DNA of 12,511 nt. Source: Bacteroidetes bacterium SW_11_45_7 (lineage in GTDB: Bacteria; Bacteroidota; Bacteroidia; Chitinophagales; SW-11-45-7). Shown piece by piece: positions 585-12,511 of this stretch. The notes under the pieces were generated by a model. It had not been told where the DNA came from and made no database searches. It saw nothing but the letters and a program-made list of their open reading frames with translations. The stretch covers positions 1 to 12,511 of the forward strand of contig PXTV01000214.1 in assembly GCA_003022985.1 (NCBI GenBank), read 5' to 3'. How positions within the stretch are numbered: position 1 is the stretch's first letter; every line of letters starts with the position of its first letter. A program made the position numbers and the translations under genes.

Positions 585-1501
585 ATGTCAGTAAAGGTTG
601 AGCATCTTACCAAGATCTACGGTGAGCAACGTGCCGTTGATGATATCTCATTTGAGCTGAACCCGGGTCATGTGCTCGGCTTTCTGGGGCCCAACGGGGC
701 TGGCAAAACAACAACGATGAAGATCATCAGCTGTTTTATTCCGCCCACAGAAGGAGAAGTCAATGTGTGCGGTTACGACATCCGTCATGATTCGCGGGCC
801 GTTCGGAAAAACATCGGTTATCTGCCTGAACACAACCCGCTCTATCCAGAAATGTATGTAAGGGAATACCTTGAATTTGTTGCCGGCCTTCACAACCGGG
901 CCAACGTTCACAGGCAACGGATTGATGAGATGATCGATCTAACGGGCCTTGGCGCTGAGCAAAACAAAAAAATCGGCCAACTTTCCAAAGGGTATAAACA
1001 GCGGTTGGGATTGGCTCAGGCAATGCTCCACGATCCGAAAGTTCTAATTCTGGACGAGCCGGCCTTGACCCGAACCAGCTTACGGAAATCCGCAACCTAA
1101 TAAGGCGCGTTGGCCGCGAGAAGACGGTTATCTTTTCCACTCACATCATGCAGGAAGTGCAGGCCGTCAGTGACCGTGTCCTCATCATCAACGATGGGAA
1201 ACTCGTTGCTGACGATACCACAACAGAACTCCAGCAACGCCTGGCAGCTGAATTGTTCATAACCGTTGGTTTTCAAGAAGATATCAACACGAGTCGCCTT
1301 AACGGGATAGAAGGTATCCGCAACATCACTTACCTGGGGGATAATACCTGGCAGCTAACGACAGAAGGAAACCGCGACATCAGAGAGGAAATTTACCGGT
1401 TTGCAAAAGATAACGATCTAACGCTCCTTACTTTGCACAAAGAGGAACGAAGCCTCGAGGATGTTTTTCATCAATTGACTGTGGAAGATAGTAGTAAGTA
1501 A
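585..1501 (+). pseudogene. gldA: GldA-like ABC transporter ATPase, frameshifted
   Basis: This is the ATP-binding subunit of a GldAFG-type ABC exporter, associated with gliding motility in flavobacteria and widespread in Bacteroidota. The first frame (585 to about 1061) carries Walker A GPNGAGKT (residues 35-42), YLPEHNPLYPEM (79-90), the signature LSKGYKQR (133-140) and Walker B VLILDEP (153-159). It then runs out of frame and stops at 1100. The second frame, from 1061 to 1501, resumes at GLDPNQLTEI and includes the H-loop FSTHIMQE. The family sequence at the join is DEP-TT-GLDP. The two threonines are missing and the frame moves as expected for a 7-base deletion. Rejoined, the protein is about 307 residues, normal for GldA. 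An 11-base palindrome-like GAGGATTCCTC precedes the ATG and contains the only weak ribosome-binding candidate. A sequencing or assembly error is an alternative to true inactivation. Confidence 0.88.
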
Positions 1502-1583
1502 CCAAGTATCAGGTAGTAAGTAAGGCAGGGCATTGAATTGCTAAGATGATATACTTAATACTTGATACCCAACACCTGATACC
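1491..1583. repeat. Direct and inverted repeat segment between gldA and gldF
   Basis: GTAGTAAGTAA occurs at 1491-1501, where it supplies the gldA stop codon, and again at 1513-1523, 22 bases on. GTATCAGGT (1506-1514) is matched by its exact reverse complement ACCTGATAC (1574-1582). A variant, TACTTGATACC (1559-1569), adds another copy on the inverted side. The whole looks like degenerate seven-base units (AAGTATC/AGGTAGT-like) in opposite orientations around a unique core at about 1524-1548. It may be a dispersed intergenic repeat or a structured leader for gldF. Confidence 0.6.
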
Positions 1584-1589
1584 GACTCA

Positions 1590-2321
1590 ATGTACAGTAT
1601 TTTCAAAAAAGAGGTTAATCTTTTTCTGAGCTCGTTAGTGGGTCAGATTGCACTGATTGTGTTTTTCCTTGCTACGGGCCTGTTCATTTGGGTCTTCCCG
1701 GAAACCAATGTGCTCGACTACGGTTTTGCCACCTTGCAGCAATTATTTGTGACAGGGCCGTGGGTTTTCATGTTCCTGATTCCGGCTATCACTATGCGAT
1801 CGTTTTCAGAGGAGTTAAGCACCGGCACATTTGAATTGCTGGCAACGCGGCCCGTTCGGGACATTGAGATCATTTTTGGCAAATATTTAGCCGCTTTAAT
1901 GCTCGTCCTTTTTTCGCTCATCCCCACCCTCATTTACTTCTACACAGTTTACCAACTCGGCTCGCCACCGGGAAATATGGATATTGGTGCTACCTGGGGA
2001 TCGTACATAGGCCTTTTGCTATTAGGTGGTGTATTTGTGGCCATTGGCCTGTTTGCATCGTCCATTTCGAGTAATCAGATTATAGCTTTTGTCTTAGGCG
2101 TCTTTTTGTGCTTCTTCCTCTATATGGCATTTGATTATTTGAGCCGTCTTGATCTCTTTATTGCATCAATTGACAATCTCATTGCCTCCCTCGGGATCTA
2201 TGAACATTACCAATCCATAAGCAGAGGAGTTGTTGATACGCGCGACCTCGTTTATTTCCTCTCCGTGATAGCACTATTTTTACTGTTAACCAAAACATCG
2301 CTTGAAAGCCGGAAGTGGTAA
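1590..2321 (+). CDS. gldF: GldF-like ABC transporter permease
   Basis: This is the membrane subunit of the exporter that pairs with the GldA ATPase. It is 243 residues, the usual GldF length, and intact. It starts MYSIFKKEVNLFLSSLVG, with a first membrane helix at about residues 17-36, the conserved GPWVFMFLIPAITMRSFSEE (56-75), the TGTFELLATRP motif (78-88), and further hydrophobic helices at about 97-120, 139-160, 163-183 and near the C-terminus. These are typical of ABC-2 permeases of the GldF group. The start follows the repeat segment and no Shine-Dalgarno site is visible. One base separates its TAA from the gldG ATG, so the two are probably co-translated. It is the only undamaged gene of the four-gene cluster, so the transporter as read would lack its ATPase. 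Confidence 0.93.
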   Translation: MYSIFKKEVNLFLSSLVGQIALIVFFLATGLFIWVFPETNVLDYGFATLQQLFVTGPWVFMFLIPAITMRSFSEELSTGTFELLATRPVRDIEIIFGKYLAALMLVLFSLIPTLIYFYTVYQLGSPPGNMDIGATWGSYIGLLLLGGVFVAIGLFASSISSNQIIAFVLGVFLCFFLYMAFDYLSRLDLFIASIDNLIASLGIYEHYQSISRGVVDTRDLVYFLSVIALFLLLTKTSLESRKW

Positions 2322-2322
2322 A

Positions 2323-3952
2323 ATGAATAAGAAGGGCTCATACCGTTGGCAGTCGATTCTGCAGCTCCTGGTTCTGGCAGTTATCATCGTGGCGAACATT
2401 ATTTCCGGCTACGTGTACAGCCGCTATGATCTCACTCAGGAAGGGCGTTACTCATTAACGGAGGCATCCAAAGAATTGGCAACAGACCTCGATGATGTGG
2501 TTTACATCAAGGTGTATCTTAAAGGCGACTTCCCTTCCGGCTTTCAACGGCTCAAGTCATCGACAGAGGATATGCTGAGGGAATTCAAGGCATACGCAGG
2601 GAGCAATATAGAATACGAGTTTTTCAACCCCAATCGGTTTGAAAGCTCAAAAAAGCAGCAGGATTTTTATCAACAGCTATCCAAGAAAGGGCTGGAACCA
2701 ACCAACCTTAAGTCCATGGAAGGCCAGGGCTACTCCGAAAAGATCATTGTACCCGGTGCGTTGGTTTATTACAACGGCAAGGAAATTCCTGTCGATTTGC
2801 TCGAGGGGCAAATTGATCAGGGTCCTCAGCAATCCCTCAATAATTCCATCCAATTGCTGGAATACAAGTTGGCCAATGGCATTCAAAAAGACCAAAACCC
2901 TCCGCCAACTTCAGTACCAGGTCAAAAAACTTGAGCTGCCCGATATCATAAGTATTCCCATGAACTATGACCTGGTCATTGTACCCAAGCCAAGACGTGC
3001 TCTCAACGAAAAGGATAAATTCAAACTTGACCAATACCTGATGAATGGGGGGCGTCTTTTATGGCTTATCGATAAGGTCAATGCCAACATGGACAGTTTG
3101 CGGAATGGGGGCTTTCAATTTACAAGGGCCAACCGCCTCAATTTGCGCGATCAGTTGTTTACATATGGCGCTCGTATTAACGAAGATTTGGTCATGGACC
3201 TCCAATGCAACAAAATTCCCCTGGTTACAGGGCAGCGGGGTAATCAACCGCAAACCCAGATGTTTCCGTGGTATTACTTTCCTGTGGTAACCACCCATAA
3301 CAATCACCCTATCAATCGAAACATATCGCCTGTGTCCTTGAAGTTTGCCAATACCATTGACACAGTAGGTGCACCGGATATCGAAAAAACTGTGCTGCTC
3401 AAGAGTTCGCAAAACAGCAAAGCTGTAAAAGCGCCAACCCGTCTGCATTTTTCCATGCTTAAATCAAAGCCTGACCCGCGTCAATTTCCCAATTCCGGCC
3501 TACCACTTGGTGTGCTTCTCGAAGGCCGTTTTGAATCCGTTTTTAAGGACCGGCTCACCTACAGCACGCGTCAAATGATCGATACGCTTGAGAATGCTTC
3601 TTATCGTGATAGCAGCAAACCAACGAAGCAGATCGTTATTGGCGATGGGGACATCATCCGTAATGAAATGCGTGGACAGAGCGAGCCGTTTCCGCTGGGG
3701 TATTATCGCTATACACAGCAAACATTTGGGAATAAAGATTTTCTATTGAACGCTATTGAATACCTGATCCATGGCAGCGGCTTAATTAAAGCTCGGAACA
3801 AAAATGTGAAGCTGCGACTATTGGATCGCACACAAGCAGAGAAGGAAAAGCGCAAGTGGCAGATCATGAATCTAAGCATACCCATAGGTTTTGTAATTAT
3901 CTTCGGGTTCATATATTCCTATATCCGCAAAAGACGCTATACAGTAAGTTAA
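2323..3952 (+). pseudogene. gldG: GldG-like ABC transporter accessory protein, frameshifted
   Basis: GldG is a membrane-anchored partner of GldF with a large extracytoplasmic ABC-type uncharacterised transport domain. I start it at the ATG at 2323, just after the gldF stop; a TTG at 2302 is in frame but overlaps gldF. Part one (2323 to about 2891) has an N-terminal membrane helix (residues about 11-30), the family motif RYDLTQEGRYSLT and NNSIQLLEYKLANGIQ, then leaves frame and stops at 2934. Part two is open in another frame to 3952. It resumes at about TLRQLQYQVKKLELP and includes YDLVIVPKP, GGRLLWLID and a C-terminal membrane helix (GFVIIFGFIYSYIRKRR). Between the parts the family normally has an IAF..GHGEL-type segment. 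It is absent, so some 20-30 residues seem lost together with the frame. Error in the assembly is possible. Confidence 0.85.
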
Positions 3953-4042
3953 GATGCCATCAAACCAAAAGAGCGAACGTTTCTACACCTCCAATTTGAT
4001 GCAAATCAACACTCAGATAAAGTCTAAAGAAAACACTTACCA

Positions 4043-5048
4043 ATGAAAAAGATTGTAATATCGGTTGGCATTCTCTTCCTGCTTGTTATTGTGGCAGTAG
4101 CAATGATTTGGCAAGACAAACAAGAAGATAAAACGCAATGGCAGAAAAAATTTGCCTTCAAGGATACGGCTAATATTGAGAAAATCTACATGGTGGGCAA
4201 ATCGAATCAAGAGGTCGTGCTCAAACGGGAAAATGGCCATTGGTCGGTGAATGAGCAATACAATGCAATGGATGCCAAAATTGATTTACTCCTCAGCACC
4301 ATTCACGATATGACGATTAAATATCCCGTTTCCAAAAAGAAGCGCGAAAACGTGATTAAAGGCTTATCGACTTCTGCAACAAAGGTGGAAATCTATACAG
4401 ACGCTAATGGCGACCCAGCACGAACTTTTTATGTAGGTAGTCCCACGCAGGGAAAGAAGGGCACCTACATGGTGCGCAGTCAAGATAGTGAAATAGCCAA
4501 GACACCCTATGTAACACATATCCCCGGCTTTATTGGTTATTTAACACCCCGCTTTTTTATAGCGGAGAAGGAATGGCGCGATCTGCGCATGTTTACCTAC
4601 AATTATAACCAGATCGAATCAATAAAGGTCGATTATCCCCTGAATACTCACCATTCATTTCAAGTAACCAAAAATAAAAATGACGATGTTCAGGTCACCA
4701 AACCTCAAGGAGGCCAGAGCAATCAAGATCAACTTATTACCACAGAGGGCAGAAGCCATTGAAACAAAGTACGATAAGCAGGATTCCATTTTGACAACCA
4801 CGCCTTATGCCGTTATTGAAGTAACACCGTTTAGCGGACAATCACAGGTAATGACCATTTATCGCAAACCTGTCACGCCTACCACCAAACAACAATTTAC
4901 TCAAGGAGGCGAAAGAAAAAAATACGATACGGACCGCTATTTTGCAACGCTCAAAAGGGATGATGATTTCTATCTTATTCAGCACCACGTATTTGGCAAG
5001 GTCTTGCGCAAGTACAACGACTTTTTTGCTGACAAGCAGCCCACCTGA
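4043..5048 (+). pseudogene. DUF4340-type membrane-anchored protein, frameshifted
   Basis: This gene belongs with the exporter: DUF4340 proteins are commonly encoded just after GldG-type genes, and their function is not established. Part one (from 4043) starts with a membrane helix (residues about 3-21, IVISVGILFLLVIVAVAMIW) and has WSVNEQYNAMDAKIDLLL and TFYVGSPTQGKKGTYMVR. It goes out of frame near 4735 and stops at 4762. Part two resumes one frame over at about RAEAIETKYDKQDSILTTTP and runs to 5048, ending with DDDFYLIQHHVFGKVLRKYN. The residues expected at the join, usually a Y-L-x-x-F-like helix, look shortened, so a small deletion of unknown size is likely. This is the third break in this cluster. 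The gap from gldG is 90 bases. Confidence 0.8.
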
Positions 5049-6206: not shown

Positions 6207-7031
6207 ATGGATAACGAAGATCTCGTTAAAACAACCGAAAGCTATTACGACTCCGAAGATGCTGACAATTTTTACTTTACTATTTGGGGTGGTGAAGATA
6301 TCCACGTAGGGCTCTACGAAGAAGGCGACACAATCTACGAAGCCAGCATTAAGACGGTTAAGCGCATGGCCGATAAGCTCAATATCGATCAATATACCAA
6401 GATCATCGATATCGGAGCAGGGTATGGTGGCTCAGCTCGCTACTTAGCTAACCGCTGCGGCTGTCATGTTGAGTGCATCAACATCAGCGAAAAGGAGAAC
6501 GAGCGCAACCGGCAGAAGAACAAGGAGCAGGGTCTCGATCACCTCATTAATGTGCAACACGGCAATTTTGAGGACATCCCCTTCGATGACAACACCTTTG
6601 ATGTGGTTTGGTGCCAGGATTCCATCCTGCATAGCGGCCGTAAGAAGAAGGTTTTTGAAGAAAGCTATCGGATCTTGAAACAAGGGGGCGATTTCATTTT
6701 CTCCGACCCCATGCAAAAGCACGATGCGCCCCGGGATGTTCTTCAGCCCGTACTCAACCGCATCCATCTCGATCACATGGGTTCGGTGACCATGTACAGG
6801 GAGTTTGCTGAGGAACTTGGCCTGGAAGAAGTGGAGATCGAGGAAATTCCGCATCAACTTCCCAATCACTATGGCCGCGTGCTCGAAGAGGTCAAGAAAA
6901 ACGAGGACCAACTTCAGGGCAAGGTGAGCAACGAGTACATTGAGAAGATGAAACAAGGCCTTGAACACTGGGTTGACAAAGGCAACAGGGGCTACCTCAA
7001 CTGGGGTATAGTCCACTTCAGGAAGAAGTAA
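6207..7031 (+). CDS. Sarcosine/dimethylglycine N-methyltransferase (betaine synthesis step 2)
   Basis: This cytoplasmic enzyme (SDMT) uses S-adenosylmethionine to convert sarcosine to dimethylglycine and dimethylglycine to glycine betaine, completing the pathway begun by the preceding gene. The 274-residue protein is of normal length. It shows YYDSEDADNFYFTIWGGEDI (13-32), HVGLYEEG (33-40), SAM motif I IIDIGAGYGGSARYLA (66-81), the GNFEDIPFDDNTFDVVW segment, QDSILHS, and the distal FSDPMQ and LDHMGSV motifs typical of SDMT. Its start is fixed by a strong Shine-Dalgarno site. A strong intrinsic terminator begins 25 bases after the stop. The product protects the cell against osmotic stress, so induction by salt is likely but no operator is visible. 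Confidence 0.95.
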   Translation: MDNEDLVKTTESYYDSEDADNFYFTIWGGEDIHVGLYEEGDTIYEASIKTVKRMADKLNIDQYTKIIDIGAGYGGSARYLANRCGCHVECINISEKENERNRQKNKEQGLDHLINVQHGNFEDIPFDDNTFDVVWCQDSILHSGRKKKVFEESYRILKQGGDFIFSDPMQKHDAPRDVLQPVLNRIHLDHMGSVTMYREFAEELGLEEVEIEEIPHQLPNHYGRVLEEVKKNEDQLQGKVSNEYIEKMKQGLEHWVDKGNRGYLNWGIVHFRKK

Positions 7032-7219: not shown

Positions 7220-7816
7220 ATGGATAAAGACATGAGAAGTGAACAAACCTATACAGAAAGCGAGCTAATTGAGGGGATTCGAACCGATTCCGAAAATGTG
7301 TATCGCTATTTGTACCGGACGTTGTCTCCTTTAATTTACAAGGATATTGTCAATCATTCCGGTTCACAGCACGAGGCGGAAGATCATTTTCACGATGTGA
7401 TGCTTGTCGTTTCGCAAAATGTAAAGCGAGGGAAGTACGAGCAGGGCAATATCATCGGCTATTGCAGGATGGTGGCCAGAAATCTCTGGCACAAGAAATT
7501 AAGGAAGAAAAATGTGGAAGTTCGTTCAAACGAATTTGACAACATCGATCCTGCCGATGAAGCGAATTACGAGAAATACAAGGCATTGGTGAAATACGAT
7601 CGGGACATCCAGTTAATCCAAAACAAGCTCAAGGCCATGGGTGACACGTGCAGGCAGATTTTAATGGACTTTTATTACACCAAAATCGGTCTTCAGGAGA
7701 TTGCCGACAAATTCGCATGGAGCTATCAATACTGTAAAAAGAAAGTGTATCAGTGTCGGCAAAACCTCAGAGAAAGTATCGAGCAGGATCCATCGTTTGA
7801 GGGTTACATAAGATAA
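7220..7816 (+). CDS. ECF-like RNA polymerase sigma factor
   Basis: This 198-residue protein has the two-domain layout of sigma-70 family ECF factors, which redirect RNA polymerase to a small regulon. Region 2 spans about residues 25-95, with YRYLYRTLSPLIYKDIV, an acidic EAEDHFHDVMLVVSQNV segment of the kind that contacts core polymerase, and IIGYCRMVARNLWHKKLRKK near its end, including the aromatic and basic residues used for -10 recognition. Region 4 spans about residues 130-190, with CRQILMDFYYTKIGLQEIAD followed by a helix-turn-helix continuing FAWSYQYCKKKVYQCRQNLR. The next gene begins 11 bases after its stop and encodes a membrane protein with an anti-sigma-like head, which supports a sigma/anti-sigma pair. 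It is the first gene after the betaine terminator and probably heads its own operon. Its exact ECF group cannot be assigned by eye. Confidence 0.88.
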   Translation: MDKDMRSEQTYTESELIEGIRTDSENVYRYLYRTLSPLIYKDIVNHSGSQHEAEDHFHDVMLVVSQNVKRGKYEQGNIIGYCRMVARNLWHKKLRKKNVEVRSNEFDNIDPADEANYEKYKALVKYDRDIQLIQNKLKAMGDTCRQILMDFYYTKIGLQEIADKFAWSYQYCKKKVYQCRQNLRESIEQDPSFEGYIR

Positions 7817-7827
7817 TTGGTTTGATA

Positions 7828-8658
7828 ATGAGCGATACAGGTAATCAGGAAAATAAGCGCTACCAAGAGGTTGACAAATACCTCCGCAGCCAAATGAATG
7901 CTGACGAGCAGGCAGCATTTGAAGCAGAAATGGAGCAAGATCCTTCTTTACAGGAAGAAGTGGAACAGGGACGCATCTTTCTATGGGCCATGGAATCGCT
8001 GGATGAGGATGAGCTCAGGAAAGACCTCATGAGGACGAATCATGTAATTCATAAAGTAAGGCAAACGAGTGATGTTCAATATGAGTCAACCCACAGGGAC
8101 AATCAGCATATAGAAAAAGGCACAGCTAAGGTGAGGTCTCTGACAAATCTTTATAAAAATGTAGCGGCTGCCGCTGCCATTCTCATTGTGTTCATTATCC
8201 CTGTTTATTTTCTTTTCCTGCAAAATCCGGGGCCAGAAGAACTGGTTGATCGATATTACAAAACGTATCCCAACACTTTGACAGAAATCAAAAGATCGGA
8301 ATCAGAGGCTGACGGACAACTTCAGTCCATTATGGCACTCTATGAAAGTGGTGATTATACAAAGGCAATAGCGCAATCGAACAAGTTATTGCAAGACGAA
8401 CCGGAAAATAATGGACTACGGTTTTACCGGGGCATTATGTACATAGAGGAGGATGCATATAAGAAGGCCATCAAGGATCTGGAAAGGGTGAAGGCACAAG
8501 AAGAGTCTTATCACACACAGGCGGAGTGGTATCTGGCTTTATCCCATTTGGCGCTTCAGCAAACGGAGCAAGCCAAACCCTTGCTCGAAAAATTGGCCCA
8601 AACACCTTCGGACTACCAACAAAAAGCCGATCAGTTACTAGCCCGGCTGGAAGATTGA
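7828..8658 (+). CDS. Membrane anti-sigma-like protein with periplasmic TPR domain
   Basis: This is probably the anti-sigma factor of the preceding gene. I start it at the ATG at 7828; a TTG at 7822 is in frame but less likely. The 276 residues divide into a cytoplasmic head (1-110), one membrane helix (111-132, VAAAAAILIVFIIPVYFLFL) and an outer TPR region (about 161-276). The head begins YQEVDKYLRSQMNADEQAAF followed by an acidic helix, the pattern of small Bacteroidota anti-sigma N-termini. It has no cysteine, so it is not a zinc-type anti-sigma. The TPR part has YESGDYTKAIAQSNKLL, FYRGIMYIEEDAYKKAI and AEWYLALSHLALQQTEQAK. The same arrangement recurs in the next gene. The outer TPRs would bind a protein ligand, perhaps the TPR-CHAT product. 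The sigma-binding role is inferred from gene order and topology. Confidence 0.78.
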   Translation: MSDTGNQENKRYQEVDKYLRSQMNADEQAAFEAEMEQDPSLQEEVEQGRIFLWAMESLDEDELRKDLMRTNHVIHKVRQTSDVQYESTHRDNQHIEKGTAKVRSLTNLYKNVAAAAAILIVFIIPVYFLFLQNPGPEELVDRYYKTYPNTLTEIKRSESEADGQLQSIMALYESGDYTKAIAQSNKLLQDEPENNGLRFYRGIMYIEEDAYKKAIKDLERVKAQEESYHTQAEWYLALSHLALQQTEQAKPLLEKLAQTPSDYQQKADQLLARLED

Positions 8659-8731
8659 AGAGGTTAGGGTCACTTATGACAAATCAAGGTATAGTTAAAT
8701 AGAAGTCATTTATCAGGAAAAACGTCAGGTT

Positions 8732-10279
8732 ATGGTTACCCAAAAGCGTATAGGAATAGCAGCATTGTTAATCATCACCGGATTTGTATTGGTTTATGTG
8801 TTTATATTAAGACAATCCGATGGCACATCCATGTTTGCGGAACATTATGAGCCCTATCCCGATATGATCAACTTAAAAGACCGGGCAGAGCAAGATTCCG
8901 GTACAGTTGAGGCTATTATGGCCAAATATAAAAGTGGTTATTATGAAGACGCCCTTTCCTCGATGAATAACTATTTGGCTCGCCATCCCGCCAATCAAAA
9001 AATACGGTTTTACAGAGGCGTGGTGAATCTGGAGCTCGATCAAGACAAAGATGCGATTGACGATTTCGAAAAGGTTGTCTTAGGGGATGATCAACTTGAT
9101 GTGCAAGCTACCTGGTATTTAGCACTTGCTTATCTGAGATTGGAACAAACTGACAGAGCAGGGATATATTTGGCGGAATTAATACAGAATAACACCAGGT
9201 ACGATCGCAGCGCCCAAAATATGATTGACCGTCTAAATCTTGATGTGGAGCAAATTAACGATGCATTTTATTACAAGATCACGGAGGATAACAAATATCA
9301 TTTGCAACAAACTACAAATGGTAAGGAAGGACCGCAAACAATAGATGAAAGGACTTTATATTTGGAGTGCAGTTATTTGGATAAACTGCCTCAAAACATA
9401 TCCTACCGGCAGTTTAAACCATTAAGACTTGCTCAACAAGACGTGTTGCTTAAATATGGGCAAAAAGAAATATGGAGCGAACAGGCGGACAATCCTGATC
9501 AAGAAACGAAAAACAGGATCGAGGAAAAAGCCGGAGCACTGATAGCCAAATTAACGAATGTAAAAGAAAGCAAAACCACCGCACAAACAGGCGATAAAGC
9601 TGTATTACCGCCAACTTTCCAAAATGAACAAGAAACCGGGAATTTGGTGGAATTGGCCAACAGTATTCAACTGATCAATATGAAAATCGAGCGCCAAAAG
9701 GACAAGGTGGAAGCGAAAAAGAAACGATACAAAAAAACGGCCCATGCTTATCAAAGCGGCTTACAAAAAGTAGGTGAAGGGTTGCAGATGCTGGGCAAGG
9801 ATGAAAAAGCAAAAACAATCATGAACCATGCTCCGGCATTTACGGATGATTTAGAAACATATTTCCGGCAAACCAAGAAAGCGCATTTAGGCAACGATAC
9901 CGTGCCCGAATGGTTTGTGGAGGAAGTGAAGCAAGGATTGAGCACGCTACACATGAATCAAAAACCCGAGGGGATGCCGGAAGAGGTGTTCCTTGCCAGG
10001 AAAAAACTCCACAAAGTGATTCGTACTGTTCTTGAGGGCAGCCAGAAACGATTGATGGCCGACAAGGGCGTGCGCGATGAAGATGCGGGGCAGCATATTG
10101 AAGTTGCGGAATACGAAATCCTCGTGGAGCAATTAGCTGATCTGGCCAATAGCAAAGTTGAGCTTCGGCAGCTAAAAGAACAAAAACGCCAAACTGTCGC
10201 CAATCTCGTAAAATTTGACAAGTTTACATCAGCTCGTCAGGGAGCCAAACCAAAGCATGAACAGCTTACGAGTAAGTAA
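8732..10279 (+). CDS. Membrane-anchored TPR protein with unrecognised helical C-terminal region
   Basis: I do not recognise this 515-residue protein as a named family. Residues about 7-26 (IGIAALLIITGFVLVYVFIL) form a signal anchor, so the rest should lie outside the cytoplasmic membrane. Residues 35-170 repeat the outer domain of the preceding gene: a short EHYEPYPDM lead, then YKSGYYEDALSSMNNYL, IRFYRGVVNLELDQDKDAID and ATWYLALAYLRLEQTDRA, aligned with FYRGI and AEWYLAL there. Residues 171-515 are rich in lysine, glutamate and glutamine. They include a likely coiled coil (about 303-360) and a long final helical part (about 395-495), with no catalytic motif I can see. It lies 73 bases downstream of the anti-sigma-like gene and before the TPR-CHAT gene, so it probably belongs to the same envelope pathway, perhaps as a competitor or scaffold. 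Confidence 0.72.
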   Translation: MVTQKRIGIAALLIITGFVLVYVFILRQSDGTSMFAEHYEPYPDMINLKDRAEQDSGTVEAIMAKYKSGYYEDALSSMNNYLARHPANQKIRFYRGVVNLELDQDKDAIDDFEKVVLGDDQLDVQATWYLALAYLRLEQTDRAGIYLAELIQNNTRYDRSAQNMIDRLNLDVEQINDAFYYKITEDNKYHLQQTTNGKEGPQTIDERTLYLECSYLDKLPQNISYRQFKPLRLAQQDVLLKYGQKEIWSEQADNPDQETKNRIEEKAGALIAKLTNVKESKTTAQTGDKAVLPPTFQNEQETGNLVELANSIQLINMKIERQKDKVEAKKKRYKKTAHAYQSGLQKVGEGLQMLGKDEKAKTIMNHAPAFTDDLETYFRQTKKAHLGNDTVPEWFVEEVKQGLSTLHMNQKPEGMPEEVFLARKKLHKVIRTVLEGSQKRLMADKGVRDEDAGQHIEVAEYEILVEQLADLANSKVELRQLKEQKRQTVANLVKFDKFTSARQGAKPKHEQLTSK

Positions 10280-10544
10280 ATTTACCTTCTGCGAGCGGCC
10301 CATTTAGATCAGTACGTTTTCTTGTACATATGAATGTGCATTTCACTACGATGGAAGCCGATGGCAACGTGTAAGCTGATCGATGAGTGATGATAAGATA
10401 AACCCGTTTTTAAATTGATCTGAAATTTCTTATTATGCAGCACTTCATTGTGTTATTGTTGAAACGTGACGTCAGCTCTTACTAATACCTGTTCCATTGG
10501 ATGTAACAAGCTATAAACCCATCCACTTATAAAAAGCTTTTAGC
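10280..10544. other. Gap between the TPR protein and the TPR-CHAT gene
   Basis: These 265 bases hold no convincing gene, terminator or consensus promoter. A 10-bp palindrome AAAAGCTTTT (10532-10541) lies just before the first possible start of the TPR-CHAT gene. An imperfect hairpin (TGTACAT with ATGTGCA-like bases near 10323-10341) has no U-tract. If the TPR-CHAT gene starts at 10620, the gap extends to 10619 and includes the structured segment at 10576-10601. Confidence 0.5.
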
Positions 10545-12511
10545 ATGGAAAACCACAAAAGGAAGACATTTTCCCCTCTTATAAGAGTGAGTTCTCGCTC
10601 TACACTTATTTGTTCTCATATGGTTAATGGTTTAGGCAAAACTGTATTGTTCGGTTTGCTGCTATTGGCTTGTGCCTTTCCCGCATGCGCATCAAAAACG
10701 GACAGTACACACACTGCAAAATGGGATTCAATAAACCAAAAAATGCTCCAATTCTATTATGAAGGAAAATACATGAAAGCTATTCAAAGGGGCCAACAAG
10801 CTGAAAAAATGGCCAAAGCTCAATTCGGCAAAAAAACGAATACGTATGCTGAAGCTTTGAATAATTTAGGTGTCTTATATAATAAGATAGGAAATTATCA
10901 AAAAGCCGAAAGCTATTATCAGCAAGCAAAAGATCTAAGAGAACAGATCTTAGATGCTCATCATCCGGATTACGCTACAACACTTTCGAACTTAGGCACT
11001 GTTTTAGAACAAAAAGGCGAATATGAGAAAGCAGTTGATTATTTGCACAAGGCCCGGAAGATACGTAAAAAGGTTTTAGGGAAAGATCACCCGGATTATG
11101 CAAAGACAATCAATAATCTCGGAGCTCTCTATCGTACCATGGGTCTTCATGAAAAATCAGAAGCATTCATGCGCCAGGCCAAAAATATCAAGAAAGCCAT
11201 CTACAATGAAAATAATGCCAATTATGCACTATCCCTCAACAACCTCGCTACTCACTATCAGGATATGGAGAATTACAACCGCGCAGAAACATTGTACAAG
11301 AAAGCAAGAGCTATTTATGGGAAAACGCTTGGCAAGAATCATGCACGTTACGCATTGGCTGTTAGTAGCTTAGGTGCATTATACCGCAAAACAGGGCGCT
11401 ATGAAAAATCTGATACACTGCTTCGGCTTGCCTTGAGGATTCGCGCAGAAAGTTTAGGTAAGCAAAGTCCCTTATACGCTCATTCTCTCAATAATCTGGC
11501 TATTCTGTATGAAGAGACCGGCCGTTACAATAAAGCGGACTCACTATACCATGAAGCGTTAACGATCCGCGAAAAAGCTCTTGGCAAAGAACACCCGAAT
11601 TTTACAACAAACCTGCTTAATCTTGCCGGTCTCTATTATCAAACCCGTTCACATGGGAAAGCCCTGGATTATTATCAACGCAGCCGTACCAAAACTCACC
11701 AGCAGATAGAGAAAATGGTCAGCTTCCTTAGCGAAAAAGGCAAGTCTGACTATGTGACAAAAGTTAAGGATCGCTTTGAGCAGTTTGCCTCTTTTGCTGC
11801 GGAAGTCCATGACGCCCTTCCTGTTACGAAAGAGATGGTCTATAATGACCAATTACTCCTGAAAGTACTCGTGCTATCCCATACGCGCGATATGCGCCAG
11901 GCCATCCGACAAAAGGCGGATTCGGCTCTCATGGGTACGTACGATAAATGGCTCGATCTCCGCAAGTTCCTTGCCCAGCAGTATTCACAGCCCAGGGAAA
12001 AGCGTACGCCCAACCTCGACAGTCTGGAAACGGCCGCCAACCGGCTTGAGCAGAAACTTGTGAAAGCCTCCGTTAAATTCCAAAAGGAACGGCAGAAAAC
12101 CAGGATCACCTGGCAGCAAGTGCAGGATACCCTGCGCAAAGACGAGGCCGCCCTGGAGTTCATTACCTACCGCCCCTGGGATGGCACATTCAGCGACACC
12201 ACCCGCTATGCTGCGCTTTTGGTCACGCCCGAAGCGGAGCATCCGCATTTTATTCCCCTGTGTGATGAACACAAAATCGAGCCAGCGCTCGAAAAAGACA
12301 AGGACACCCGCGAGCCCCTCTTCATCAACGACCTATACAGCTACCGGGGCGGAGGCGGTACGCTGTACAGGAACCTATGGGCCAACATCGAGGAGAAACT
12401 TTCCGACCCCCGCACCATCTACTACAGCCCGGCCGGCCGGTTGCATCAGCTCAGTTTGCAGGCTTTTCCTCATCCGGAAAAGCAATATCTCAGCAACAAG
12501 TACAACTTCTT
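10545..12511 (+). CDS. Exported TPR-CHAT protein, C-terminus beyond right edge
   Basis: CHAT is a caspase-like (clan CD) protease fold often fused to TPR repeats. The frame is open from the ATG at 10545 to the edge (655 codons). The ATG at 10620 is also in frame and gives a cleaner signal peptide, MVNGLGKTVLFGLLLLACAF, followed by PACAS. Cleavage could be type I after ACA or lipoprotein-type at a LLAC cysteine. From residue 101 (numbered from 10545), 42-residue TPRs recur exactly every 126 bases (10845, 10971, 11097, 11223, 11349, 11475, 11601) with the kinesin-light-chain-like pattern LNNLGxLYxxxGxYxKAE and LGKxHPxYA. A degenerate unit precedes them. After a helical linker (about 395-520), the CHAT domain begins near residue 525 with EAALEFITYRPWDG, RYAALLVTPEA and IYYSPAGRLHQLSLQAF. 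The catalytic His and Cys lie beyond the window. GC content rises sharply into the CHAT part. Confidence 0.9.
   Translation, partial: MENHKRKTFSPLIRVSSRSTLICSHMVNGLGKTVLFGLLLLACAFPACASKTDSTHTAKWDSINQKMLQFYYEGKYMKAIQRGQQAEKMAKAQFGKKTNTYAEALNNLGVLYNKIGNYQKAESYYQQAKDLREQILDAHHPDYATTLSNLGTVLEQKGEYEKAVDYLHKARKIRKKVLGKDHPDYAKTINNLGALYRTMGLHEKSEAFMRQAKNIKKAIYNENNANYALSLNNLATHYQDMENYNRAETLYKKARAIYGKTLGKNHARYALAVSSLGALYRKTGRYEKSDTLLRLALRIRAESLGKQSPLYAHSLNNLAILYEETGRYNKADSLYHEALTIREKALGKEHPNFTTNLLNLAGLYYQTRSHGKALDYYQRSRTKTHQQIEKMVSFLSEKGKSDYVTKVKDRFEQFASFAAEVHDALPVTKEMVYNDQLLLKVLVLSHTRDMRQAIRQKADSALMGTYDKWLDLRKFLAQQYSQPREKRTPNLDSLETAANRLEQKLVKASVKFQKERQKTRITWQQVQDTLRKDEAALEFITYRPWDGTFSDTTRYAALLVTPEAEHPHFIPLCDEHKIEPALEKDKDTREPLFINDLYSYRGGGGTLYRNLWANIEEKLSDPRTIYYSPAGRLHQLSLQAFPHPEKQYLSNKYNF
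10576..10601 (+). promoter_or_regulatory. Palindrome and hairpin near the TPR-CHAT start
   Basis: CTCTTATAAGAG (10576-10587) is a perfect 12-bp palindrome. It overlaps AGAGTGAG (10584-10591), which pairs with CTCGCTCT (10594-10601) as an 8-bp stem with one G-U. The segment lies between the two candidate ATGs and could be an operator or a leader structure if the gene starts at 10620. Confidence 0.35.

Follow-up and report, generated by a model that had tools for sequence, protein, structure and literature searches.

The stretch of DNA analysed here, 12,511 nucleotides from Bacteroidetes bacterium SW_11_45_7 (contig PXTV01000214.1, forward strand), carries in a row the genes of a sigma factor, a putative membrane-bound anti-sigma, a second protein with tetratricopeptide repeats (TPR) and an exported TPR-CHAT protein, and it raises the question of what a CHAT protein does beside a sigma factor and its inhibitor. 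This stretch (the window) is the whole contig, G000:C214, and ends inside the open reading frame (ORF) of the TPR-CHAT protein, before the CHAT dyad. A sequence-only reading of the window had proposed a CRISPR-free envelope pathway of sigma, anti-sigma and TPR-CHAT, and this proposal is supported by the neighbourhood of the genes in relatives, by the dyad of a full-length homologue and by predicted export. The CHAT protein probably acts as site-1 protease: by cutting the linker of the anti-sigma at an Arg it would release the sigma. The evidence computed for this role comprises linkage of the genes, conservation of His and Cys, agreement of the predicted compartments, the conserved Arg and its covariation with the active-site region of the CHAT.

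The four genes and their products

All four ORFs of the cluster were found on the + strand where the sequence-only reading had placed them. Here and throughout, signal peptides, membrane segments and compartments were predicted by hydropathy. The features are as follows:

7220..7816, + strand: sigma factor of extracytoplasmic function (ECF) type, 198 residues (TIGR02937 and PF04542 over cut-off; family alignments)
7828..8658, + strand: anti-sigma, 276 residues, with a helical head (1-81), one membrane helix (about 112-130), a linker and a TPR domain (161-275) (hydropathy, AlphaFold model, NF052375 family matches)
8161..8217, + strand: predicted membrane helix of the anti-sigma, residues 112-130 (hydropathy)
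8293..8295, + strand: codon of anti-sigma Arg156, the candidate P1 residue for cleavage by the CHAT (K-R/S-E, the slash marking the cut), in the linker that joins the membrane helix to the TPR domain (alignment)
8732..10279, + strand: TPR2, 515 residues, with a signal anchor, an outer domain that is a paralogue of the anti-sigma's and a long C-terminal extension
8882..8884, + strand: codon of TPR2 Arg51 (D-R-A), aligned with anti-sigma Arg156
10620..12511, + strand: 5' part of the exported TPR-CHAT gene, the ORF being open from 10545 with a likely start at 10620 (homologue P0033)

The sigma factor is of clear ECF type, with 55 bits to TIGR02937 (cut-off 42.9) and 29.1 bits to PF04542 (cut-off 24). 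Two Cys residues of its C-terminal part, Cys144 and Cys179, are kept in 70/73 CHAT-linked and 51/53 unlinked sigmas of the family. Being equally common in both groups, the pair was rejected as a mark of CHAT-linked sigmas; it may have a redox or metal-related function.

The anti-sigma, whose start is most likely the ATG at 7828 judging from the homologue P0001, has a single hydrophobic segment with the TPRs C-terminal to it. An AlphaFold model based on 53 sequences (mean predicted local distance difference test score, pLDDT, 86.2) contains four helices in the head, the membrane helix and a TPR domain predicted with good confidence; the score has its minimum (below 50) at residues 84-102, which connect the head to the membrane helix, and drops to 69 at residues 151-160, the linker segment containing Arg156. 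The protein reaches 29.2 bits to the NCBIfam model 'anti-sigma factor' NF052375, a weak match below the cut-off of 100, and the same model matches 33/53 members of the anti-sigma family at E<=0.01. Predicted topology and position beside the sigma gene fit a class I anti-sigma. The fold search with the model barely tested the head, as the 50 matches listed were all TPR proteins.

The window part of the TPR-CHAT protein, most likely starting at 10620 by comparison with its homologue P0033, contains many kinesin-light-chain-like TPRs, and PF12770 is absent from the reported matches of this piece and of the entire source genome, which is 57.8% complete. It is taken for a CHAT protein because the full-length P0033, 94% identical to it over window residues 375-655, carries PF12770 (197.8 bits, cut-off 24). 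The gene of P0033 was found on a contig of 39.8 kb. The sequence-only reading had located the catalytic dyad beyond the window, and indeed the contig stops before it, while His748 and Cys827 are both present in P0033 together with Asp864, a signal-like start and a C-terminal hydrophobic helix. Export of the TPR-CHAT protein, as that reading had it, was likewise predicted: a CHAT paired with a membrane-bound anti-sigma would be exported.

Linkage, active site and linker arginine

Linkage was surveyed in 59 genomes of the order, in which the positions of matches to the window sigma were set against every listed PF12770 place; rows of the source genome were left out of the score bands. A CHAT place lay within 8 kb of 9/14 sigma genes scoring at least 50 bits and of 8/12 at 40-50 bits, compared with 6/19 at 30-40 bits, 3/33 at 25-30 bits and 1/42 below 25 bits. 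In total 27 sigma genes were seen within 8 kb of a CHAT where random placement gives 2.68, and the grouping of sigma and CHAT exceeds chance. A further 100 loci were annotated, a TPR-type anti-sigma being defined by a profile score of at least 60 bits. CHAT genes occurred within 6 kb of 32 of the 36 TPR-type anti-sigmas beside a sigma (26 of 30 when 20 loci picked for carrying a CHAT were set aside) versus 9 of the 54 other sigma neighbours. Beside many of the other sigmas lies a gene for a protein of some 360-390 residues, and CHAT genes are absent there. Linked CHATs are carried by Aquimarina, Agaribacillus aureus, Kordia, Winogradskyella, Saprospiraceae and Bacteroidales genomes, and the anti-sigma profile matched at E<=1e-12 in 278/396 genomes of the order, the weaker matches possibly being other TPR membrane proteins. 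Most counts in this work left out CHAT ORFs that were open-ended or below a length limit (300 to 600 residues, depending on the script); near-duplicates and repeated loci were retained (L247, L252 and L264 repeat L215, L225 and L245).

The sequence-only reading had expected all four genes to occur together. Sigma, anti-sigma and TPR-CHAT are indeed neighbours in many related genomes, while TPR2 was not seen elsewhere. No gene beyond these three core genes was counted as part of the module; among recurrent neighbour families the largest cluster spans 15 loci. In a converse test on 80 named loci (full flanks or linked), sigma-linked CHATs amounted to 29/46 with a C-terminal membrane helix and 3/10 without one, a difference that was not significant (p 0.08); the scan behind this test required the Cys motif, which makes Cys conservation there uninformative, and locus L202 was dropped.

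The arrangement of the genes differs from locus to locus. Among 72 linked cases 28 were divergent, 26 convergent and 18 on the same strand (CHAT downstream in 12, upstream in 6), and adjacency is kept while gene order and orientation vary. This bears on the possibility that an old neighbourhood was simply inherited, with no functional coupling of its genes. The distances of sigma, anti-sigma and CHAT do correlate, as expected of co-inherited genes; however, common descent would leave the persistence of adjacency through changing order and orientation unaccounted for, the weak sigma matches of the same genomes are seldom linked, and the divergence of sigma, head, outer TPR and CHAT is also correlated among paralogues inside one genome (0.47-0.82, 25 non-independent pairs). 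Linkage by descent alone is considered very improbable.

Some loci depart from the one-to-one scheme. Tandem TPR-CHAT paralogues were found at L187 (5103-16507), L170, L203 and L223, with three of them beside one sigma/anti-sigma pair at L187. At L129 and L138 the gene after the sigma encodes a protein of 698 or 969 residues that has a membrane helix near residues 72-96 and lacks a match to CHAT; it may be a bigger anti-sigma in one chain.

Both catalytic residues, His and Cys, were conserved in 69/69 linked CHATs, part of which were fetched by the Cys motif, and in 13/13 linked CHATs not chosen by motif. On the side of the presumed substrate, the linker between membrane helix and TPR domain is variable in length and sequence apart from one Arg, which was found in 81/94 aligned anti-sigmas (duplicates kept, the window protein counted twice) and in 109/128 of an enlarged set, again with duplicates kept; in these 109 the next residue is Gly in 49 and Ser in 35.

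Covariation of this site with the enzyme was tested by a procedure set down before it was run, after Glu had been seen in the Met-type locus L071. The CHAT column in question holds Asp (or Glu) 37 residues after the catalytic Cys and corresponds to Asp864 of P0033. In 62 linked pairs the combination of linker residue and CHAT residue was Arg/Asp in 53, Met/Glu in 5, and Gly, Lys or Ser with Asp in 4; L127 and L136 are two of the loci with Met/Glu. An unguided scan of the CHAT columns returned just two in which all five Met-type enzymes had a residue found in no more than 2 of 52 enzymes of Arg type: the change of Asp to Glu 37 residues after the Cys, and a change of Ala or Ser to Gly two residues before the catalytic His. 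Held-out loci (40 fetched of 120 chosen, from a search of 396 genomes) contributed 24 pairs, namely Arg/Asp 20, Ser/Asp 2, Lys/Asp 1 and Lys/Glu 1. After exact duplicate anti-sigma sequences had been dropped, the 82 unique pairs were Arg/Asp 71, Met/Glu 5, Lys/Glu 1 and other/Asp 5, and Glu never occurred with Arg. On the CHAT tree about six changes of the linker site were counted and three origins of Glu, all of them paired with a residue other than Arg; the placement of the third, L276, has a support of 0.54.

Instead of cutting, the CHAT could serve as a co-sensor or scaffold that binds the outer part of the anti-sigma, the signal being passed on by a change of conformation or by exposure to another site-1 protease, with the linker Arg as a docking point. 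The anti-sigma DdvA of Myxococcus has a TPR-CHAT built in, and HtrA-type proteins were matched in 40/40 relatives searched, all of them under the DegS cut-off. Against this role stand the His and Cys retained by the 69/69 linked CHATs and by the 13/13 chosen independently of the motif, as well as the covarying residues, which adjoin the catalytic His and sit in the loop after the Cys; the co-sensor role is rated as unlikely.

The predicted compartments of the two proteins also agree. Anti-sigma membrane helix and CHAT C-terminal membrane helix were both present in 30 of 41 linked pairs, both missing in 8 and discordant in 3. In all 8 soluble pairs the CHAT was scored as having no signal sequence, and 7 of the 8 come from one family (genomes G040 and G027), hence from few events. 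This soluble module, observed at L074, L147-L151 and L154, combines an anti-sigma devoid of a membrane helix with a CHAT devoid of signal and membrane helix. The 7 soluble anti-sigmas of the family have a different C-terminal part, beta-rich by eye, and 7/7 of these non-TPR forms carry F-x-[PVS]-...-Y-E-...-R-[GSA] after the head; the motif was written after the sequences had been seen, and shuffled sequences match it about 0.3 times per 1000. Since forms that have no TPR domain carry a similar Arg pattern, the linker Arg probably has no part in the packing of the TPRs. The distribution suggests that inhibitor and enzyme switch location as a pair.

A candidate site-1 protease for sigma release

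From these results we infer the following course of events. With its head, the one-pass anti-sigma would keep the ECF sigma at the inner membrane; its outer part consists of a short variable linker followed by the TPR domain. The exported, separase-like TPR-CHAT cysteine protease would have its catalytic domain tethered to the membrane by the C-terminal helix, facing that linker. When the TPR domains meet a signal, the CHAT would cut the linker after the conserved Arg (Arg156 here), which would be the site-1 cut, and site-2 proteolysis, probably by RseP, would then free the sigma. RseP was found over the TIGR00054 cut-off in 36/40 relatives, the weakest matches possibly being PDZ domains only; in the source genome it appears as two neighbouring pieces, each under the cut-off. 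DegS was found over the TIGR02038 cut-off in 0/40 genomes, the source genome with its 57.8% completeness included, and in 1/14 of the control.

Several results weigh against CHAT cleavage at the linker Arg and have to be set beside the evidence for it. As to linkage, a listed sigma lies within 8 kb of just 28/117 CHAT places among the 59 relatives, which means that numerous CHATs must have another function or work at a distance, and a CHAT within 6 kb is missing from 4/36 TPR-type anti-sigmas, as it is, despite full flanks, from the neighbourhood of 5/35 held-out ones. Over all 60 modules the distances of sigma, anti-sigma and CHAT are weakly correlated (0.11-0.33), and the value for sigma and the catalytic part of the CHAT (0.11) was reached by 12/200 permutations. 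As to covariation, the Glu of L071 was already known when the column was named; the held-out set brought no new Met/Glu pair, its Lys/Glu pair was not named by the strict prediction, and three of its loci repeat contigs already used. Kinship of the sequences makes Fisher values too optimistic, including the 1.3e-6 for the 82 pairs. Locus L153 (Met-Gly-Gly-Gly with CHAT Asp) and the Arg-less L225 and L245 do not fit. The covarying Asp appears to neighbour the Arg-binding position of separase, and a part in the P1 pocket is a guess. Identity with the Arg-binding Asp of separase was considered and rejected, since the distances from the Cys are 37 and 41 residues (human Cys2029 and Asp2070). Orthologues of Craspase, the CRISPR-associated CHAT protease, cut non-conserved sites according to the available part of PMC11106740, so a strict site is no rule in CHAT enzymes.

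The upstream regions belong to the same balance. A simple word search upstream of sigma and CHAT in 65 linked pairs revealed no shared promoter motif over control pairings, which fails to support the cleavage pathway and leaves autoregulation through such a motif unsupported. It also touches another view of the linkage, that the CHAT is an output of the sigma, which would switch it on to cut other envelope proteins, the two genes being neighbours through a shared regulon. ECF sigmas often control neighbouring genes, and each of the two genes has an upstream region of its own in the 65 linked pairs, as this view would have it. The missing motif speaks against it, weakly in view of the simple search and the diversity of the sigmas, and a mere output would leave the matching compartments, the pairing of residues and the one-chain DdvA unexplained; it is regarded as improbable. 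Site-1 cleavage of the anti-sigma by the CHAT remains the preferred reading.

By a small margin of belief we favour a wider proposal as well. In it, separase-like CHATs would be the dedicated site-1 proteases of a large Bacteroidota family of sigma/anti-sigma pairs, replacing DegS; the enzyme and a single conserved Arg site would co-evolve, and the pair would have moved as a unit between envelope and cytoplasm. DdvA and Craspase would be derived or parallel forms, and TPR2 of the window a decoy or second substrate.

TPR2 has an N-terminal hydrophobic segment and a TPR region resembling that of the anti-sigma (phmmer 4e-29). A homologue search in 5.8 billion proteins, in which the 7997 candidates sharing most words were scored, matched TPR2 itself alone. 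A conserved partner role of TPR2 is not supported by this protein search, and the related loci were not screened for it. The protein looks like a local addition outside the conserved core. Having the same outer domain and Arg as the anti-sigma and no sigma-binding head, it is perhaps a decoy or a second substrate.

The rest of the window is occupied by other functions. Upstream of the four genes, on the + strand, lie gliding genes followed by a methyltransferase pair for betaine synthesis. Both the Gld genes and the named carriers of the module agree with an origin in the Bacteroidota. gldA and gldG (window 585-5048) are split into overlapping or adjacent frames, while GldF is whole; RseP of the source genome is likewise in two pieces (G000:C35). 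The broken gldA and gldG and the split RseP point to assembly indel errors or decay. The ORF at 5350-6168 matches glycine/sarcosine N-methyltransferase over cut-off and that at 6207-7031 sarcosine/dimethylglycine N-methyltransferase with 391 bits (cut-off 550); these genes, directly upstream of the sigma gene, are probably a glycine-betaine synthesis pair. An Rfam scan of the window at gathering cut-offs gave zero matches, and a PADLOC search with the three complete window proteins and P0033 returned a generic TPR family only and no known defence system.

Comparison with known systems

Substrates of most bacterial CHAT proteases are unknown. For one set of CHATs the present analysis points to a class of substrates, gives an exact position for the candidate cut and identifies residues of the enzyme that covary with it, and the Bacteroidota gain a candidate site-1 protease for sigma release; if true, this would be a common signalling route. 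In a published survey, a recognised class I anti-sigma lies near just 6% of Bacteroidetes ECF sigmas (PMC7406223, available part), and an anti-sigma type that had been missed would help to fill this gap. Among the literature matches listed none describes a split envelope module of sigma, anti-sigma and CHAT, a weak absence given that the key papers on ECF classification and on DdvA lay outside the search.

The sequence-only reading had likened the locus to type III-E CRISPR systems. Of the known systems DdvA/DdvS of Myxococcus is the closest instead, judged by sequence, although the likeness to type III-E stands by fold. Foldseek with the P0033 model placed Csx29 first and DdvA (PDB 8rot and 8rw5) at ranks 3 and 6, with a match to the separase fold as well, whereas in the comparison of the CHAT profile with PDB sequences DdvA was the best match (E 3.1e-9, its His and Cys aligning) and the Craspase CHATs followed with E 0.002 to 0.006.

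In Myxococcus xanthus, as here, an ECF sigma (DdvS) is held by a transmembrane anti-sigma (DdvA), the chain of which includes a CHAT. The active site of DdvA is reportedly incomplete, and self-cutting in trans upon a signal, followed by RseP, has reportedly been proposed. DdvA is one polypeptide, whereas anti-sigma and CHAT are here two membrane-anchored proteins and the dyad of the CHAT seems intact; in the window and in the annotated linked loci the CHAT has a gene of its own and is not joined in one chain to the head, membrane helix and TPR of the anti-sigma. The joining of anti-sigma and CHAT in DdvA is a classic sign that separate versions work together. According to the available parts of the respective papers, DdvS is active once DdvA has been inactivated (PMC4374960) and controls an antiphage island in Myxococcus (PMC12288465).

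The proposed order of events corresponds to that of DegS, RseP and RseA, in which an anti-sigma that spans the inner membrane once is first cut at site 1, on the outer side of that membrane, and then acted on by RseP. DegS is a trypsin-like PDZ protease, and the site-1 enzyme would here be, unlike DegS, a separase-like cysteine protease. The two-cut sequence of DegS, RseP and RseA is described in PMC10028731 (part of the text available).

The likeness to separase concerns the architecture, a helical array followed by a caspase-like protease, and the Arg at P1, which is the proposed P1 residue here. Separase is the enzyme that lets sister chromosomes part; it is eukaryotic and cuts cohesin, and its Arg-binding acid lies 41 residues after the Cys as against 37 for the conserved acid of the linked CHATs. 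In human separase the P1 Arg is bound by Asp2070, as stated in the available section of PMC10317155.

A protease that frees a sigma factor is also found in type III CRISPR systems with CalpL, CalpT and CalpS, where the sigma is released from an inhibitor. CalpL, a Lon-type cytoplasmic protease activated by cyclic oligoadenylate, is unrelated to CHAT, and the likeness consists in the freeing of the sigma by proteolysis.

Craspase (the TPR-CHAT protein Csx29, Csx30 and CASP-sigma) is activated by RNA and has no envelope location, in contrast to the present CHATs, which are predicted to be exported and are paired with a conserved Arg site. Its cytoplasmic TPR-CHAT has no counterpart in P0033 and most linked CHATs, which have a signal-like segment and a C-terminal helix. 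No direct repeats occur in the window, which stops inside the CHAT, and no Cas gene was noticed among its ORFs, which were not searched with Cas profiles. DdvA and Craspase being known already, the split envelope module described here would be their variant, in which inhibitor and protease are encoded as separate proteins of the cell envelope.

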